64,000 nt of DNA, from contig JAGOUM010000007.1 of NCBI GenBank assembly GCA_018061265.1, forward strand, positions 19,875-83,874, written 5' to 3'. A program made the position numbers and the translations under genes. The DNA is from Rhodoferax sp. GTDB lineage: Bacteria > Pseudomonadota > Gammaproteobacteria > Burkholderiales > Burkholderiaceae_C. Shown piece after piece: positions 17,213-32,288 of this stretch. Under the pieces are notes generated by a model. That model was not told the DNA's origin and made no database searches. It was given only the letters and a program-made list of their open reading frames with translations. How positions within the stretch are numbered: the first letter of the stretch is position 1; the number at the start of each line of letters is the position of its first letter.

Positions 17213-17542
17213 TCAGTAGCCGCCCTTGCCCAGGGGTTGCGGTAATCCGGCCACCTTGGGGCCTTGCTTGGCCGGGCCGATGGGGAACAGGTCATAAAGG
17301 TACTTGCTGTCCACACCCGGATGAATCTCGGCAAAACCCTTGAGCATGTTGCGAAAATTGGGCGTGTGGCCGTGCTCACGGTACTCATCGCGCAGGTAAT
17401 TGATCACCTCCCAATGGGCGTCGGTCAGTTCGATGCTCTCTGCCGCAGCTATCACCCGTGGTGCCTCGTCGTCAAACACCGGCTCCACCAGATATCCCTG
17501 ATCGTCGGCTTCGTGCTCCACACCACCAATGTTGTAGCTCAT
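17213..17542 (-). CDS. DsrC/TusE-family protein lacking both redox cysteines (RspA-like)
   Basis: 109-aa DsrC fold protein. The start at 17542 follows GGAGA and gives normal family length; the longer frame to 17644 adds a leader unlike DsrC. The conserved core reads DAHWEVINYLRDEY and KYLYDLFPIGPAKQGPKVAGLPQPLG. Both functional cysteines are gone: position B (ACKIAG in DsrC) is GPKVAG, and the C-terminus ends LGKGGY rather than TGCI. It cannot carry persulfide or trisulfide chemistry. Cys-less relatives have been called RspA and proposed to be regulatory. It lies beside the cas6-like gene and divergent from dsrABC. Confidence 0.88.
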   Translation of the reverse strand: MSYNIGGVEHEADDQGYLVEPVFDDEAPRVIAAAESIELTDAHWEVINYLRDEYREHGHTPNFRNMLKGFAEIHPGVDSKYLYDLFPIGPAKQGPKVAGLPQPLGKGGY

Positions 17543-18741: not shown

Positions 18742-20022
18742 ATGAGCAAACAACCCCATGACACCCCAATGCTCGATCAGCTCGAAAGCGGTCCATGGCC
18801 GAGTTTCGTGACTGGCCTCAAGCGCCTAGCCAAAGACAACGACTACATGACTGACCTGATGGGTCAGCTGGAACACTCGTACAAAACCCGCAAGGGCTAT
18901 TGGAAGGGTGGCACCGTGGGCGTGTTTGGCTACGGCGGCGGTGTGATTCCGCGTTTTTCCGAAGTTGCAGAAATGTTCCCTGCTTCCAAAGAGTTCCACA
19001 CCCTGCGTATTCAGCCGCCGGCCGGCATGCACTACGACACCAACGTGCTGCGCAAGATGTGTGACATCTGGGAGAAACATGGCTCGGGCCTGATCGCTTT
19101 CCACGGCCAGTCGGGCGACATCATGTTCCAGGGTGCCAGCACTGCCAACGTGCAAGGTGCCTTTGATGAATTGAACGAACTCGGCTTTGACCTCGGTGGT
19201 GCCGGCCCGGCTGTGCGGACCTCGATGTCTTGCGTGGGCGCAGCACGCTGCGAACAGTCCTGCTATGACGAAGCGCGTGCACATCGCGAAGTGGTCAACA
19301 CCTTCCTGGACGACATGCATCGCCCGGCACTGCCGTACAAGTTCAAGTTCAAGTTCTCGGGCTGCCCGAACGACTGCATGAACTCGATCCAACGTGCCGA
19401 CATGGCCGTCATCGGCACCTGGCGCGACAATATCCGCACCGACGAAGGAATGGCCAAAAAGTGGTTCGCCAAACACGGCATGAACGAGCTGGTGAACGAC
19501 GTGGTCAGCCGCTGCCCGACCAAGGCCATCATGCTCAAGGAAATCAAGGACGTTGGTACCGGCGCCAAGATCTCCAGCGTCGCCGTGAACGATACCCAGG
19601 CACTGGAAATTGACAACGGCAACTGTGTGCGTTGCATGCACTGCATCAACGTCATGACTGGTGCCTTGCAAATCGGCACTGACAAGGGTGTGACCGTATT
19701 GATGGGTGGCAAGCGTACCCTGAAGATCGGCGACCTGATGGGCACCGTGGTGATTCCGTTCATGAAGATGGAAACAGACGAGGATTACGAAGCCCTGGTG
19801 GAGCATGCCCAGAAGTCCATCGACTTTTTCGCCGAAAACGCACTGGAACACGAGCGCACCGGCGAGATGATCGAGCGCATTGGCCTGATCAACTTCCTGG
19901 AAGGCATTGGTGTCGAAATTGATCCGAACATGGTTTCCACGCCACGTACCAACCCTTACGTCCGCACCGACGGTTGGGACGACGAAGTCGCCAAGATCAA
20001 CGCACGCAAAGCAGCGGCATAA
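18742..20022 (+). CDS. dsrA: Dissimilatory sulfite reductase alpha subunit (reverse type)
   Basis: 426-aa cytoplasmic subunit of the siroheme-[4Fe-4S] enzyme DsrAB, run in the oxidative direction to convert DsrC-bound sulfane sulfur to sulfite. Cofactor cysteines are visible in SCVGAARCEQSCYDEAR and FKFSGCPNDCMNS. The inserted ferredoxin domain has NGNCVRCMHCINVM. The reading of DsrAB as oxidative is inferred from the linked dsrEFH, dsrL and CBB genes and the absence of dsrD. Ribosome site CTGGAGA precedes ATG 18742. First gene of a collinear operon through 32288. Confidence 0.97.
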   Translation: MSKQPHDTPMLDQLESGPWPSFVTGLKRLAKDNDYMTDLMGQLEHSYKTRKGYWKGGTVGVFGYGGGVIPRFSEVAEMFPASKEFHTLRIQPPAGMHYDTNVLRKMCDIWEKHGSGLIAFHGQSGDIMFQGASTANVQGAFDELNELGFDLGGAGPAVRTSMSCVGAARCEQSCYDEARAHREVVNTFLDDMHRPALPYKFKFKFSGCPNDCMNSIQRADMAVIGTWRDNIRTDEGMAKKWFAKHGMNELVNDVVSRCPTKAIMLKEIKDVGTGAKISSVAVNDTQALEIDNGNCVRCMHCINVMTGALQIGTDKGVTVLMGGKRTLKIGDLMGTVVIPFMKMETDEDYEALVEHAQKSIDFFAENALEHERTGEMIERIGLINFLEGIGVEIDPNMVSTPRTNPYVRTDGWDDEVAKINARKAAA

Positions 20023-20052
20023 AACCCAAGAACTTGTTAAAGGAAGACAAAA

Positions 20053-21123
20053 ATGGCAACCTTGCGTACACCCATTGAAAGTGGCGTGCCAGATAACAAA
20101 CAGTATCTGCACCCGCTGATGGTCAAAAACTACGGCAACTGGAAGTACCACGATCGGCCACGTCCGGGCGTGCTGCACCACGTGGCGCATTCGGGCGATG
20201 AGATCTGGACCGTGCGTGCGGGCACGCAACGTCAGATGGATTTGTTCACCATTCGCAAGCTGTGCGACATCGCCGACAACTTTGCCGACGGTCATGTGCG
20301 ATTCACGATTCGCAGCAATATTGAATACATGGTGTCAGATCAGACCAAAGTTGCCCCCCTGATTGACGCCCTGACCAACAATGGTTTCCCGGTGGGTGGC
20401 ACTGGCAACTCGGTGTCAGCGATTGCCCACACCCAGGGCTGGCTGCATTGCGACATTCCAGGCACCGACGCCTCTGGCGCAGTCAAGGCGCTGATGGATG
20501 AGCTGGTGGTCGAGTTTGTCAAGGAAGAGATGCCCAACCGCGTCCACCTGTCCACCTCTTGCTGCGAAATCAATTGCGGTGGTCAGGCAGACATCGCCAT
20601 CGTGGTGCAGCATACCAAACCACCCAAGATCAACCACGATCTGGTTGCCAACATGTGTGAACGCCCCACTGTGGTGGCGCGCTGCCCGGTGGCTGCCATT
20701 CGCCCGGCCATGGTCAACGGCAAGCCCTCGCTCGAAATTGATGAGTCCAAATGTATGTGCTGCGGCGCATGCTACCCACCCTGCCCCCCGATGCAAATCA
20801 ATGACCCCGATCACAGCAAGCTGGCGATCTGGGTGGGCGGCAAGAACTCGAACGCCCGTGGCAAACCGACCTTCATGAAGATGGTGGCATCGGGTCTGCC
20901 CAACAATCCACCGCGCTGGCCTGAAGTGTCGGCCATGGTGAAGAAGATTCTCTACACCTACAAGGAAGATGCTCGCTCTTGGGAGCGCGTGTCGGACTGG
21001 ATCGAGCGTATTGGCTGGCCACAGTTCTTCGAGAAGTGCGACTTGCCCTTCACCAAGTACCTGATTGACGATTGGCGTGGTTCGCGTTCGAGCTTGAATG
21101 CCTCGACCCACATCCGCTTCTGA
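20053..21123 (+). CDS. dsrB: Dissimilatory sulfite reductase beta subunit
   Basis: 356-aa partner of DsrA; it carries the catalytically active siroheme in known structures. Siroheme/cluster motif HLSTSCCEINCGGQADIA and the ferredoxin insert CMCCGACYPPCPPMQIND are clear. Starts 30 bp after dsrA with AAGGAAG upstream. The C-terminus (DDWRGSRSSLNASTHIRF) is intact. Length and motifs are normal for the family. Confidence 0.97.
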   Translation: MATLRTPIESGVPDNKQYLHPLMVKNYGNWKYHDRPRPGVLHHVAHSGDEIWTVRAGTQRQMDLFTIRKLCDIADNFADGHVRFTIRSNIEYMVSDQTKVAPLIDALTNNGFPVGGTGNSVSAIAHTQGWLHCDIPGTDASGAVKALMDELVVEFVKEEMPNRVHLSTSCCEINCGGQADIAIVVQHTKPPKINHDLVANMCERPTVVARCPVAAIRPAMVNGKPSLEIDESKCMCCGACYPPCPPMQINDPDHSKLAIWVGGKNSNARGKPTFMKMVASGLPNNPPRWPEVSAMVKKILYTYKEDARSWERVSDWIERIGWPQFFEKCDLPFTKYLIDDWRGSRSSLNASTHIRF

Positions 21124-22287: not shown

Positions 22288-22620
22288 ATGAGCTTTGAAA
22301 TCAACGGCAAAACCTACGAAACCGACGAAGAGGGCTATTTGCTCAACTTGGCCGAGTGGACAACCGATGCCGCCGGTCACCTGGCCGAAGAAGAAAAAGT
22401 TGTTCTGACCGACAACCATTGGGAAGTGATCAACTTTCTGCGTGAATACTACAACGAGTACCAGATCGCTCCGGCCGTTCGCGTGCTGACCAAAGCGATT
22501 GGCAAGCAGTTTGGTGAAGAAAAAGGCAACAGCAAATACCTGTATGACCTTTTCCCATACGGCCCGGCCAAACAGGCTTGCAAGATTGCTGGTTTGCCCA
22601 AACCCACTGGTTGTATCTAA
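22288..22620 (+). CDS. dsrC: DsrC sulfur carrier, canonical two-cysteine form
   Basis: 110-aa physiological partner of DsrAB. Both redox cysteines are present: Cys98 in PAKQACKIAGLPKP and penultimate Cys109 in TGCI. It receives sulfur from DsrEFH and presents it to DsrAB; the resulting trisulfide or disulfide is handled by DsrK. It is one of three DsrC-type domains in the window; the other two (17213-17542 and the C-terminus of DsrN) lack both cysteines. Good ribosome site (CTGGAGA). Confidence 0.97.
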   Translation: MSFEINGKTYETDEEGYLLNLAEWTTDAAGHLAEEEKVVLTDNHWEVINFLREYYNEYQIAPAVRVLTKAIGKQFGEEKGNSKYLYDLFPYGPAKQACKIAGLPKPTGCI

Positions 22621-28146: not shown

Positions 28147-29373
28147 ATGAAAATCACTCTCAGTGAACTCAAGGGCAGCAGCCCGGGCTATTACATACTG
28201 CTAGGTTCCTTTGCCCTGGTGGCAATGGTTGGTTTGGCCGCAGTCTGGTACATGGAGCATTTTGGTCACATCGTGACAGGGATGAACAACCAGATTGTCT
28301 GGGGTATGCCACACGTATTTGCCGTTTTCTTGGTTGTTGCCGCGTCAGGTGCACTCAACGTCGCCTCAATGGCCTCGGTATTCGGAAAAACCGAATTTAA
28401 GCCCTTGGCGCCGATGTCGGGCATGTTGGCGATCGCTTTGTTGCTCGGTGGTTTGACGGTACTGATGCTGGATTTGGGTCGACCAGACCGTCTGATTGTG
28501 GCGATGACGTATTACAACTTCAAATCGATCTTCGCTCTCAACATCTTCCTCTATTCCGGGTTCATGGGTTTTGTCATTGTCTACCTCTGGACCATGATGG
28601 AGCGCCGCATGAATCAGTTCACGCCGGTCGCCGGGCTGTTCGCCTTTATCTGGCGCATGGCACTGACAACCGGCACCGGTTCAATTTTTGGTTTCCTGGT
28701 TGCGCGTCAAGCCTATGATTCTGCGCTACTGGCACCTTTGTTCATTGCGCTGTCCTTCAGTTATGGATTGGCTGTGTTCCTTCTGGTGTTGATGTGGGCC
28801 GGCATGGGCAGCGGTCGTCGCATCAGCAACCTCATGATGGCGCGGTTCGCACGTTTGCAGATCATATTTATTGCGGCTGGTCTGTACTTTGTCCTGATTT
28901 ACTATTTGACCAATTTTTACTTCACGCGGCATCACGGCTTTGTGCGTTTTATCCTGCTTGATGGCGGCATCTACACTGCACTATTCTGGCTAGGCCCGAT
29001 CCTGCTTGGCGCTGTACTACCCATCATTTTGCTGCTGCATCCACGTATTGCCGAGATGCCCAAACGGGTCGCAGCTTGTGCGGGCATGGTGATTGCGGGT
29101 GGCTTTGCGCAGATGTACGTCACCATTGTGGGTGGCCAGGCTTTCCCCCTGATTTTGTTCCCAGGCAGAGAAGTGACCAGTACGTTTTATGATGGCATGG
29201 TCAACAGCTACTCACCGGCACTGCCAGAGTGGCTTCTTGGGTTCGGCGGTATCGCAATTGTCGGCATCATCGTGATGATTTCCCTCAAGGTACTGGGTTT
29301 TATTCCGGAAAATCTCGCTTCTGAAGACGATGCAAGTACCTTGCATGGTCACGCCACCGCCAAGCAATCCTGA
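28147..29373 (+). CDS. dsrP: DsrP NrfD-like membrane subunit
   Basis: 408-aa integral membrane protein of the NrfD/PsrC family with about ten hydrophobic helices; forms the second quinone-linked module of DsrMKJOP with DsrO. The first helix (YYILLGSFALVAMVGLAAVW) and LGRPDRLIVAMTYYNFKSIF are typical. It begins 3 bp after dsrO. Confidence 0.93.
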   Translation: MKITLSELKGSSPGYYILLGSFALVAMVGLAAVWYMEHFGHIVTGMNNQIVWGMPHVFAVFLVVAASGALNVASMASVFGKTEFKPLAPMSGMLAIALLLGGLTVLMLDLGRPDRLIVAMTYYNFKSIFALNIFLYSGFMGFVIVYLWTMMERRMNQFTPVAGLFAFIWRMALTTGTGSIFGFLVARQAYDSALLAPLFIALSFSYGLAVFLLVLMWAGMGSGRRISNLMMARFARLQIIFIAAGLYFVLIYYLTNFYFTRHHGFVRFILLDGGIYTALFWLGPILLGAVLPIILLLHPRIAEMPKRVAACAGMVIAGGFAQMYVTIVGGQAFPLILFPGREVTSTFYDGMVNSYSPALPEWLLGFGGIAIVGIIVMISLKVLGFIPENLASEDDASTLHGHATAKQS

Positions 29374-29383
29374 CCCATTCGGC

Positions 29384-31114
29384 ATGGCGCGTCTGTTAAT
29401 TTCTGCGGCTCACAAGTCGTCAGGAAAAACTACGGTAACCCTTGGCCTGTGCGCTGCTCTGGTTGCGCGCGGACTAGTGGTTCAGCCGTTTAAGAAAGGT
29501 CCTGACTACATCGACCCGATGTGGCTCGGTCAGGCAAGCCATCGTGCCTGCCTTAATCTGGACCCCTATCTGATGACTGGCCCCCAGATCACTGCGTGTT
29601 TCACTCACAATTCTGCATCGTGTGATATCAGTATCGTCGAAGGCAACAAGGGACTTTATGATGGCCTCGCACTGGATGGCAGCAACAGCAACGCTGCACT
29701 GGCGCATTTGCTGGACTTGCCAGTCGTATTGGTGCTCGATTCGCGTGGCATGACCCGGGGCATTGCGCCCTTGATTCTGGGCTATCAGGCGTTTGACCCC
29801 GGAATCAAAATCGCCGGGGTGATCCTGAATCAACTTGGCGGCTCGCGCCATGAGGCAAAACTGAGGGCCGTGATCGAACATTACACGGATGTCAGGGTCC
29901 TGGGTGCGGTTGCGCACGATCCTCAACTTGGCGTGCTCGAACGCCATCTTGGGTTGATGCCCAGTCGTGAACTGAGCAACCCAGCGGCGCTGGTCGACTC
30001 AATTGGAACGCTTGTGGGTCAACAGGTCGATCTTGACGCGCTCTTGGCAGCTGCCAATGCGGCGACTCCGCTATCCGGTGCGCCACAAGAAATACTTGGT
30101 TTGCCGCAGCATGCCAGTAAGGTGCGGATCGGTCTGGCCTCGGACAAAGCTTTTGGGTTTTACTACCCTGACGACCTGATGGCACTGGAGGCTGCCGGCG
30201 CGGAAATTGTGCGTTTTGACACCTTGCAAGACCAACAATTGCCTGAAATTGACGGCTTGGTGATAGGTGGCGGGTTCCCGGAAGTGTTCATGGCCGAATT
30301 GTCAGCCAACGGTACGATGCGCGAGAGTATCCATGATGCGGTTGAGCAAGGATTGCCGGTGTATGCAGAATGTGGCGGGTTGATGTACTTGGCTCGCAGT
30401 CTGAACTGGAAGGAGCAAACCTGCACCATGGTGGGTGCCTTGCCGGCCGACGTCAAGATGCATATGCGCCCGATTGGCCGGGGATATGTGTCCCTTGAAC
30501 CTACTGATGAGGCCCCATGGTCATCTATTGGAACAGATGCGTTGGTGCGTGGTCATGAGTTCCATTATTCAAGCCTGGAGAACGTTTCTCCTGAAGTCCG
30601 TTTTGCCTACAAGGTCAAGCGTGGGCATGGCATTGATGGGCAGCATGATGGCCTGTTGTACCGTAACGTACTGGCATCGTATTCACATCTGCGCAGCAGT
30701 GCCGGGTCCAACTGGGCTCCGGCGTTCGTGGAGTTTGTTCGATCTGTACAGACATCTGTCACCCAAACCACCGGATCGCACCATGTGCTGGTCAACGGCG
30801 AACCCATAGCGACGGACTCGGAGGGGTATTTGCTCGACCTGAGCCGATGGAGCGAAGATTTCGCCATTGCACGTGCCCGCCTGGAGAAGCTCGAACTGAC
30901 ACCTTCGCATTGGGAAGTCATCCGGTTTCTCAGGGACTATTACGAACAGCACCGGGTGCAGGCTCAGGTGCGTTCTATGATTAAACATTTTGCCGGGCTT
31001 TGGGGAATCGAACGTGGTAACAACCACCATTTACACACGATGTTCCCCATCGGGGGCCCGCAGAAACAAGGCAACCGCCTTGCCGGGTTGATGAAAACCA
31101 AAGGCGAACACTGA
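29384..31114 (+). CDS. dsrN: DsrN siroheme amidase fused to a Cys-less DsrC domain
   Basis: 576-aa fusion. Residues 1-450 are a CobB-type glutamine-dependent amidotransferase: P-loop HKSSGKTTVTLGLCAAL, then a glutaminase domain with VYAECGGLMYLARSL (nucleophile Cys) and a terminal HEFHYS. This half would make siro-(hemo)amide for DsrAB. After a linker, residues about 468-576 form a full DsrC fold: VNGEPIATDSEGYLLDL, PSHWEVIRFLRDYY, FPIGGPQKQGNRLAGL. Both DsrC cysteines are absent (GNRLAG, and the end KTKGEH). The usual DsrN is about 450-470 aa, so the tail is extra. The start at 29384 matches the CobB family; upstream ATGs at 29330 and 29345 overlap dsrP. Confidence 0.92.
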   Translation: MARLLISAAHKSSGKTTVTLGLCAALVARGLVVQPFKKGPDYIDPMWLGQASHRACLNLDPYLMTGPQITACFTHNSASCDISIVEGNKGLYDGLALDGSNSNAALAHLLDLPVVLVLDSRGMTRGIAPLILGYQAFDPGIKIAGVILNQLGGSRHEAKLRAVIEHYTDVRVLGAVAHDPQLGVLERHLGLMPSRELSNPAALVDSIGTLVGQQVDLDALLAAANAATPLSGAPQEILGLPQHASKVRIGLASDKAFGFYYPDDLMALEAAGAEIVRFDTLQDQQLPEIDGLVIGGGFPEVFMAELSANGTMRESIHDAVEQGLPVYAECGGLMYLARSLNWKEQTCTMVGALPADVKMHMRPIGRGYVSLEPTDEAPWSSIGTDALVRGHEFHYSSLENVSPEVRFAYKVKRGHGIDGQHDGLLYRNVLASYSHLRSSAGSNWAPAFVEFVRSVQTSVTQTTGSHHVLVNGEPIATDSEGYLLDLSRWSEDFAIARARLEKLELTPSHWEVIRFLRDYYEQHRVQAQVRSMIKHFAGLWGIERGNNHHLHTMFPIGGPQKQGNRLAGLMKTKGEH

Positions 31115-31134: not shown

Positions 31135-31503
31135 ATGTTTACACTGACCAGCGCAGCAGCGCAACAAATTCAACTGGCCGCCCAGGCCAGCAGCGCCGAA
31201 AACATGGCCTTGCGTCTAGCAGCAAAGCTTGATGCAGATGGTACCGTCCAATATGGCATGGGTTTTGATGAGCCCGACGACGAGGACCTCAAACTCAATC
31301 TGGAAGGCGTTGATATCGTGATCGGTATGCCGTACCAGGCCCTGCTCGAGGACACCACGCTCGATTTCGTTGAGATGGAGCCGGGTGAATTCAACTTCAT
31401 TTTTCTGGATGGCCGCCAGACAGGTGGCGTGACCACCAGCAGTTGCACATCCGGGGGATGCAGTAGCGGTGGCTGCGGGAGCAAAGGTGGAGGCTGCCAT
31501 TGA
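31135..31503 (+). CDS. dsrR: DsrR A-type-like protein with Cys-rich tail
   Basis: 122-aa protein of the IscA/HesB fold. DsrR in Allochromatium is needed for full dsr operon function, probably post-transcriptionally, and lacks the Fe-S cysteines of IscA. Here the fold region (1-97) likewise has no cysteine. A Gly/Ser/Cys tail carries Cys104, Cys109, Cys114 and Cys121 and ends in His122 (CTSGGCSSGGCGSKGGGCH). Such a tail could bind metal. The stop overlaps the cobA start. Confidence 0.88.
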   Translation: MFTLTSAAAQQIQLAAQASSAENMALRLAAKLDADGTVQYGMGFDEPDDEDLKLNLEGVDIVIGMPYQALLEDTTLDFVEMEPGEFNFIFLDGRQTGGVTTSSCTSGGCSSGGCGSKGGGCH

Positions 31504-32288
31504 GTACCAGCGATGAGACTTCCCATCGACCAGGCTGTGTTTATCTGGTCGGTGCGGGTCCCGGTGACGCCGAGTTACTGACCCTGCGCGCGGTTCGTCT
31601 GTTACAGCGTGCCGATGTTGTTGTTTATGACAATTTGGTCTCGACAGAAGTGCTGGATTTCCTGCCAGCAGGGGCACAACGCGTTTACGCAGGAAAACGC
31701 CGCAACGAACACACCATGCGCCAGGAGCAGATCAACGCGCTGCTGGTCAAGCTTGCCCGCGAAGGTAAACAGGTCATACGCCTTAAAGGCGGAGACCCGT
31801 TCATATTTGGGCGCGGTGGCGAAGAACTGCAAACTTTGGCAGCGCATGGGGTCGCATTCGAAGTCGTCCCTGGCGTCACGGCGGCATCCGGCGTTTCAAG
31901 TTATGCAGGCATTCCGCTTACCCATCGGGACTACGCCCAGACCTGCCTTTTTGTGACCGGTCACTTGAAAGACGGAACCGCTGACCTGGATTGGCCGAGT
32001 CTGGTGCGCCCCAACCAAACGGTGGTGATCTATATGGGGCTCAGTGGTTTACCCGACATTTGCCAGAAGATGATGGCGCATGGTGCACCGTCAGAGCTTC
32101 CCGTGGCGGTCGTCCAGGATGGCAGTAGCCGAACACAGGCTGTGGTAACAGGTTGCCTGTCCAACATTGCCGAACGCGTCAGCTCAAAAAAACTGCAGTC
32201 CCCGAGCCTGACAATTATCGGTAACGTGGTCAAGTTGCACAGTGAGCTTGCCTGGTTTAAACCCACATCGAGTTTGCCGACCTCCTAG
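31500..32288 (+). CDS. cobA: Uroporphyrinogen-III C-methyltransferase (siroheme synthesis)
   Basis: 262-aa SAM-dependent methyltransferase making precorrin-2, the first committed step to siroheme. Motifs: VYLVGAGPGDAELLTLRAVR, VVYDNLVS, RLKGGDPFIFGRGGEE, and VPGVTAASG. TTG 31500 overlaps the dsrR stop, so the genes are coupled. Only the methyltransferase module is present, not the CysG dehydrogenase/ferrochelatase part. It supplies siroheme for DsrAB just before or with DsrN and takes the place where dsrS is found in Allochromatium. Confidence 0.93.
   Translation: MSTSDETSHRPGCVYLVGAGPGDAELLTLRAVRLLQRADVVVYDNLVSTEVLDFLPAGAQRVYAGKRRNEHTMRQEQINALLVKLAREGKQVIRLKGGDPFIFGRGGEELQTLAAHGVAFEVVPGVTAASGVSSYAGIPLTHRDYAQTCLFVTGHLKDGTADLDWPSLVRPNQTVVIYMGLSGLPDICQKMMAHGAPSELPVAVVQDGSSRTQAVVTGCLSNIAERVSSKKLQSPSLTIIGNVVKLHSELAWFKPTSSLPTS

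Follow-up and report, generated by a model that had tools for sequence, protein, structure and literature searches.

Why a siroheme amidase should be continued, within one open reading frame, by a DsrC domain devoid of cysteines is the question raised by the dsr operon of this Rhodoferax sp. genome. To our knowledge, it is still open how siroheme amide enters DsrAB and why siroheme is amidated. The gene was analysed within a stretch of 64,000 nucleotides, referred to here as the window. DsrN is reported to be required for the amidation of siroheme and to be widely conserved in Dsr organisms (PMC10504309), and in known structures the arm of DsrC occupies the DsrA-DsrB cleft close to siroheme (PMC3397948). 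The partners of DsrC named in the latter source are the DsrAB cleft and DsrEFH, the contact with DsrEFH strictly needing the terminal cysteine (PMC3397948), and the DsrMK complex is described as acting on DsrC trisulfide (PMC10504309).

The fused gene and its place in the dsr operon

Positions 29384-31114 (+) were occupied by a single stop-free open reading frame encoding an amidase, a short linker and a complete DsrC domain; the DsrN-DsrC fusion claimed by the sequence-only reading was found to be real, both domains lying in one open frame. An alternative in-frame ATG was present upstream, at 29330; the matches in relatives begin at residue 1 and support 29384 as the probable true start of the fusion. 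The dsrN part (29384..30748, +; residues 1-455) matched the GATase_3 (Pfam E 4.2e-37), CbiA and cobB profiles, the last (TIGR00379, NCBIfam) with 451 bits, over its cut-off, and both domains of the CobB/CbiA amidase expected of DsrN, one ATP-binding and one a glutamine amidotransferase, were detected by the Pfam and NCBIfam profiles. A P-loop, HKSSGKTT, was present in this part, as were the motifs AECGG and GHEFHYSS. The linker (30749..30787, +; residues 456-468), which differed in length and sequence among fusions, was followed by the Cys-free DsrC-like domain (30788..31111, +; residues 469-576) and by the stop codon (31112-31114, +). In the same protein as GATase_3, DsrC PF04358 was matched over residues 470-572 (E 2.5e-29, 102 bits against a cut-off of 24.9), and the NCBIfam model dsrC_tusE_dsvC TIGR03342 scored 91.8 bits against a cut-off of 53.5.

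The gene lay between dsrP and dsrR, in a dsr operon with dsrAB. The name DsrN was given to the amidase part by this position in the operon, and siroheme amidation would be its reaction by analogy with A. vinosum (PMC10504309). A separate CobB-like gene, 36% identical, was found elsewhere in the same genome (G000:C131). The open reading frames at 18742..21123 (+), which by family and synteny would be dsrA and dsrB, encode the proposed docking target; the dsrA family TIGR02064 scored 531 bits at the dsrA place of this genome. A dsrR-like gene and a uroporphyrinogen-III methyltransferase gene (31135..32288, +; Pfam and NCBIfam) lay directly downstream of the fusion and formed the siroheme end of the operon, the Fe-S_biosyn match of the dsrR-like gene being slightly under the Pfam cut-off. 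The dsrR-like A-type carrier protein (31135-31503) had a Gly/Ser/Cys-rich tail, TSSCTSGGCSSGGCGSKGGGCH.

The cysteine count of the fused domain was 0, whereas the true DsrC of the window, encoded in the same operon (22288..22620, +) and used for comparison, contained both cysteines. The canonical product ended in ...QACKIAGLPKPTGCI and the fused domain in ...GGPQKQGNRLAGLMKTKGEH. In the C-terminal arm of the latter (31049..31111, +; residues 556-576, IGGPQKQGNRLAGLMKTKGEH) Asn and Glu stood at the two DsrC cysteine positions, which bore out the earlier claim that both redox cysteines are missing.

Further DsrC-family genes were observed in this genome. A second Cys-free DsrC paralogue was encoded at 17213-17539 (-), divergently and upstream of dsrA, with the end AKQGPKVAGLPQPLGKGGY; opposite-strand matches near dsrA were also seen in relatives, e.g., G010 and G032. 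A fourth DsrC-family gene of the same genome (G000:C167:730-1008) scored 75 bits.

The domain had also been read as a complete DsrC fold, and the predicted structure agreed. The AF2 model of the domain alone had a pLDDT of 94.4, and its eight best Foldseek matches were all DsrC-family chains, the ninth match having an E of 1.8. The top match was A. vinosum DsrC 1yx3 (TM 0.88), and the DsrAB-bound DsrC chains 2v4j, 2xsj, 3or1 and 3or2 gave TM values of 0.75-0.79. The whole fusion was modelled with a pLDDT of 92.2 and a pTM of 0.80, the mean pLDDT of residues 571-576 being 54; Foldseek with this whole model returned CTP synthases and class I amidotransferases, and DsrC was absent among the matches listed.

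Recurrence of the fusion and a separate DsrC subfamily

A full-length open fusion was found in 6 of 60 relatives (G020, G002, G010, G003, G011 and G032), and a further fusion, with an internal TAG, in G022. Six other relatives had a close DsrN match without the DsrC domain, namely G012, G049, G009, G055, G059 and apparently G033, where the absence is uncertain because the contig ends 123 bases beyond DsrN. In two genomes of the same genus in which DsrN was seen without the fused domain, a TGA was noted inside the dsrA match (G012:C176 and G033:C306).

The species-genome collection was scanned with a 12-row domain alignment, which gave 402 stretches and 361 relatives, and the best 80 were kept; as these were chosen by similarity to the window's domain, the fused fraction is not a population rate. 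Among the best 80 of 361 loci, the domain was fused to DsrN in 34 (L062 and L070 being cut by the contig end inside dsrN), encoded by a separate gene directly behind dsrN in 35 (L063 with a stop inside dsrN, L088 with a stop at the junction), located behind narI and far from dsrN in nine, and found in other contexts in two (L098, where it diverges from dsrA; L100, where it precedes dsrR at the edge of a contig). The separate pair was present, e.g., in Hydrogenophaga aromaticivorans D2P1 (L114) and Ramlibacter lithotrophicus RBP-1 (L083), whose records carry no MAG label. By record titles, the 34 fused loci belonged to Rhodoferax (19), Polaromonas (2) and Hydrogenophaga (1), the rest being without a genus. 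CobB-DsrC fusions, which the sequence-only reading had advised seeking in other dsr operons, were thus recovered repeatedly.

A frameshift or a chimeric contig at the junction was ruled out by the 34 fused loci in other records; together with the open fusions in 6/60 relatives, they therefore excluded an artefact. A chimeric junction was also rejected by DNA identity, which varied along the operon with no abrupt jump in the comparisons with L045, L046 and L050. The protein identity of L050 to the window was 97-100% from dsrC to dsrL and 71-86% from dsrJ to dsrN; the recombination breakpoint suspected from these values was discarded, since the DNA identity shifts gradually. In a tree of 98 rows and few columns, the fused label changed 5 times (4-5 in bootstraps); the tree would also be compatible with a single origin of the fusion and later splits.

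In the order sample, consisting of 63 DsrC-family-bearing genomes of the order, the domain-profile matches split into 11 matches in 10 genomes at 195-217 bits and the rest at 118 bits or below. Judged by this gap, the fused domain belongs to a sharply separated DsrC subfamily. A second Cys-free dsrC with 195 bits was observed at G236:C2:22477-22815 (-), in a genome that also has a narI-linked copy.

The arm motif GGPQKQGNRxAGxxxTKGEH was complete and nearly frozen in 80/80 loci (best 80 of 361). In all 80, Asn stood eleven residues before the penultimate position, at the place of the second DsrC cysteine, and the penultimate residue, a cysteine in functional DsrC, was Glu, followed by a terminal His; a cysteine was present in the last 25 residues of 0/80 loci and elsewhere in the stretch examined in 10/80. 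In the 20 loci of the class sample described below, the strict arm motif was found in 13/20, the last His in 19/20, and GGPQKQGNR with the penultimate Glu in 20/20, where GGPQKQGN itself is present by selection. The subfamily breaks the rule of a strictly conserved penultimate DsrC cysteine as published in PMC3397948.

Over the whole DsrC, 70 columns showed an invariance of 95% or more among 42 canonical sequences; the subfamily kept 24 of them, had 18 fixed to another residue and had 28 below 95%. Its own columns of at least 95% invariance numbered 49, and by these counts the subfamily is under constraint, but of another pattern than canonical DsrC. The mean pN/pS of 11 fusions (55 pairs), a rough measure as pS was near saturation, was similar in DsrN (0.26) and the domain core (0.24), high in the linker (0.83) and lowest in the arm (0.06). 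On these ratios, selection within the fusion is strongest on the arm, and the linker evolves almost freely and behaves as a tether.

With DsrC (PF04358, TIGR03342) the fused domain shares the fold and the arm residues F, P, G, P, K, Q, A and G; it differs from it in having Asn and Glu for the cysteines, one inserted Gly and 18/70 invariant columns fixed otherwise, and it would be unable to carry sulfur. TusE, of the tRNA thiolation relay, is likewise matched by PF04358, but the NCBIfam TusE model scored 85 bits, under its cut-off of 191, and its family is described as keeping the penultimate cysteine (PMC3397948), which is absent from the fused domain. The N-terminal 455 residues and the place behind dsrP agree with DsrN, a siroheme amidase of the CobB/CbiA family, whereas the DsrN proteins of the six relatives listed above carry no DsrC domain, that of G033 only apparently. 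The viral dsrC_1 of SUP05 phages, compared by description only, is also a DsrC variant without a C-terminal cysteine and with a function left open; it differs in being stand-alone and viral and in having no 7-8 residue insertion (PMC4164917). The literature searched gave no report of the fusion, of this subfamily or of a DsrC linked to nar genes, which is weak evidence of absence.

A different DsrC-like gene was found between dsrN and dsrR in G306, a genome of another family of the order (L028 4606-4917, -). Its product kept the inner Cys and had no terminal Cys, its start shared one base with the dsrN stop (the last of the stop codon), and its score with the subfamily profile was 90 bits, well apart from those of the members. 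Thus dsrN is paired, apparently independently, with two DsrC variants that lack the sulfur-accepting cysteine.

Copies beside nitrate and nitrite reductase genes

In the best 80 of 361 loci, the neighbour of the nine copies far from dsrN was identified as narI by Pfam, Nitrate_red_gam scoring 254 bits in L030, where the preceding gene contained a nitrate-reductase beta C-terminal domain (Pfam). For a wider sample, 369 genomes of the class Gammaproteobacteria were searched with an exact 24-base pattern for GGPQKQGN, by which variants are missed; it matched 21/369, own genome included, and the reversed control matched 0. DsrN was sought in the fetched stretches (7.5-14 kb) of the 20 other class loci, and none was found in them.

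In 7/20 class loci (L146, L152, L153, L155, L156, L157 and L164) the gene lay behind narI, and NarH was confirmed by TIGR01660 at all seven. In 6/20 (L147, L148, L149, L161, L162 and L165) it lay behind an iron-sulfur/DmsC-type subunit, which was adjoined by a Pfam-confirmed molybdopterin oxidoreductase in L147, L149, L161 and L165 and by a same-looking molybdopterin-type open reading frame in L162, the stretch of L148 beginning too late to tell. The molybdopterin protein of L147 was nearest to formate-dehydrogenase and NasC models, whose cut-offs it did not reach, whereas the NirD cut-off was passed by a small Rieske protein of the same locus; NirB was on the same contig in 5/6 of the DmsC-type-linked loci, the exception being L148. 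Neighbours of nitrate- or nitrite-reductase type were thus present in 13/20 class loci. In L161 (4049-6995, -), the Cys-free dsrC behind the molybdopterin genes was followed by genes for a MoxR-type AAA ATPase and for a VWA protein, and L162 was similar.

A second fusion, in which a different N-terminal stretch of ~100 residues was joined to the Cys-free DsrC, was found in L150, L151, L154, L158 and L163, all from gammaproteobacteria outside the own order. This stretch had no Pfam match in the five proteins, no convincing NCBIfam match in three and no meaningful match to a solved structure in one. In L159 the copy starts the contig and precedes a phosphatase-kinase, and L160 had no telling neighbour. 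The nitrate linkage of a wider subfamily, occurring beside dsrN, narI and molybdopterin/DmsC genes with NirB, was absent from the sequence-only reading.

The tie of the domain to dsrA-bearing genomes held, as carriers almost always had dsrA. In the order sample it was present in 10/10 carriers, as in each of the 63 genomes searched, and it was also present in 18/18 handles of nar-linked or other copies, representing 16 distinct genomes. In the class sample it was found in 19/20 carriers beyond the own genome, with only fragments in G551 and G562; all 20 match dsrA at E 0.001, and 19/20 is our reading, the match of G529 (81% complete) being weak and nitrite-reductase-like and its congener G389 having dsrA. 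Motif carriers made up 19/117 class genomes with dsrA (E 1e-60) against 2/252 others (G529 and G562; Fisher p 1.3e-8, kinship ignored).

NarH was present in 9/10 carriers and 15/53 others of the order sample (Fisher p 4e-4, kinship ignored), at a threshold of 300 bits that was set after the scores had been seen. For the class sample, the 20 carriers were compared with 60 of the 98 remaining dsrA genomes, taken in the order of their handles: NarH was found in 9/20 against 12/60 (p 0.04), NirB in 16/20 against 39/60 (p 0.27, no clear difference), and NarH or NirB in 20/20 against 40/60 (p 0.002), kinship being ignored. The NarH association partly restates the linkage, because 7/9 NarH carriers in each sample have the Cys-free gene behind narI itself. 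The genome G299, 100% complete and with a dsrN-linked copy, had no NarH.

Possible role of the cysteine-free domain

It was proposed, as the likeliest reading and at rather less than an even chance, that a non-redox DsrC tethers DsrN to DsrAB for on-site siroheme amidation. The fused domain would be such a non-redox DsrC, in which the fold and the conserved arm are kept and both cysteines are exchanged, and it would bind in the manner of DsrC and accept no sulfur. On its loose tether it would hold DsrN at DsrAB, or at an apo or assembly form of DsrAB, and siroheme would be amidated and delivered at its site of use; free-standing copies would act likewise in trans. Having no cysteines, the arm cannot transfer sulfur but may still dock, and for that reason a domain holding DsrN at DsrAB was preferred. 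We infer DsrAB as the bound partner and cofactor amidation and delivery as the purpose.

Docking is supported by the genes fused to dsrN (34) or directly behind it (35) among the best 80 of 361 loci, and by the near-restriction of carriers to dsrA genomes. The apparently convergent pairing in G306 and the strong constraint on the arm against that on the linker (pN/pS 0.06 vs 0.83) would also favour it. Against it, the canonical DsrC surface seems not to be simply kept: with 18 columns fixed otherwise and 28 below 95%, the domain may have another partner, or another site, than DsrC. Many Dsr genomes also do without the Cys-free domain, namely 53/63 in the order sample and 98/117 in the class sample by the exact pattern. 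Amidation alone leaves the narI-linked copies (9/80 and 7/20) and the class loci with no DsrN in the fetched stretch (20/20) unexplained. Since subfamily members stand by narI, molybdopterin and NirB genes, their role may extend to Dsr during nitrate metabolism, besides amidation at the site of use.

Nitrite may harm DsrAB, and these copies could belong to a guard or governor linked to nitrate, in which the Cys-free DsrC would be an unreactive plug in the DsrAB cleft during cytoplasmic nitrate reduction, shielding siroheme from nitrite or NO or slowing down sulfur oxidation; the DsrN fusion would then be a local arrangement that places the plug on newly finished DsrAB. The genes behind narI in nine of the best 80 of 361 loci and in 7/20 class loci, the molybdopterin oxidoreductase and/or DmsC-type neighbours in 6/20 (with NirB in 5/6) and the excess of NarH, or of NarH or NirB, in carriers argue for such a plug. 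It is nevertheless doubtful, as dsrN is the commonest neighbour among the best 80 of 361 loci, the NarH association is not independent of the linkage and was scored with the post hoc threshold, NirB alone does not differ clearly, the tests ignore kinship, and G299 lacks NarH. The 69 of the best 80 of 361 loci in which the gene is fused or adjacent to dsrN would suit a domain that works on DsrN itself, its arm reaching the active site or substrate to regulate or aid amidation with no DsrAB contact. That is unlikely, given the copies located away from dsrN in narI- and NirB-linked genomes and the low confidence of the last six residues in the AF2 model (mean pLDDT 54), where no docked tip was seen.

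The domain might instead be a dominant-negative or assembly factor whose arm binds another classical DsrC client, i.e., DsrK of DsrMKJOP, DsrEFH or DsrL. The client genes are in the same operons wherever the contig is long enough, so co-occurrence cannot tell them from DsrAB; for DsrEFH the contact depends on the terminal cysteine (PMC3397948), which is absent in 80/80 loci (best 80 of 361), and this makes it an unlikely client. An alternative client was altogether considered decidedly improbable. Several sulfur- and nitrogen-metabolism operons are linked to the gene, as might be expected of a DNA-binding regulator of dsr and nar genes, and DsrC reportedly binds the dsr promoter. This role is very improbable for a domain fused to a soluble metabolic enzyme, with an arm more constrained than its helical core. 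The loss of both catalytic cysteines could also reflect a decayed, functionless DsrC copy captured by dsrN, an explanation that can scarcely be credited and was rejected by the pN/pS of the core (0.24) and arm (0.06) in 11 fusions and by the full arm motif in 80/80 loci.

The Cys-free domain suggests that an old sulfur carrier was reused as a docking or control module. A broader proposal, which we regard as a serious though minority possibility, is that the Cys-free DsrC subfamily serves as an adaptor common to reverse-Dsr sulfur oxidation and to nitrate/nitrite reduction in the cytoplasm. It would bind DsrAB without redox chemistry in order to finish, protect or gate the siroheme-amide site, being often encoded with nitrate or nitrite reductase outside Burkholderiaceae and built into the siroheme amidase in the Rhodoferax group. 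The fusion and the conserved pairing of the two genes point to a candidate partner of DsrN. If the nitrate linkage is causal, it would identify a protein by which sulfur oxidation is connected with denitrification.
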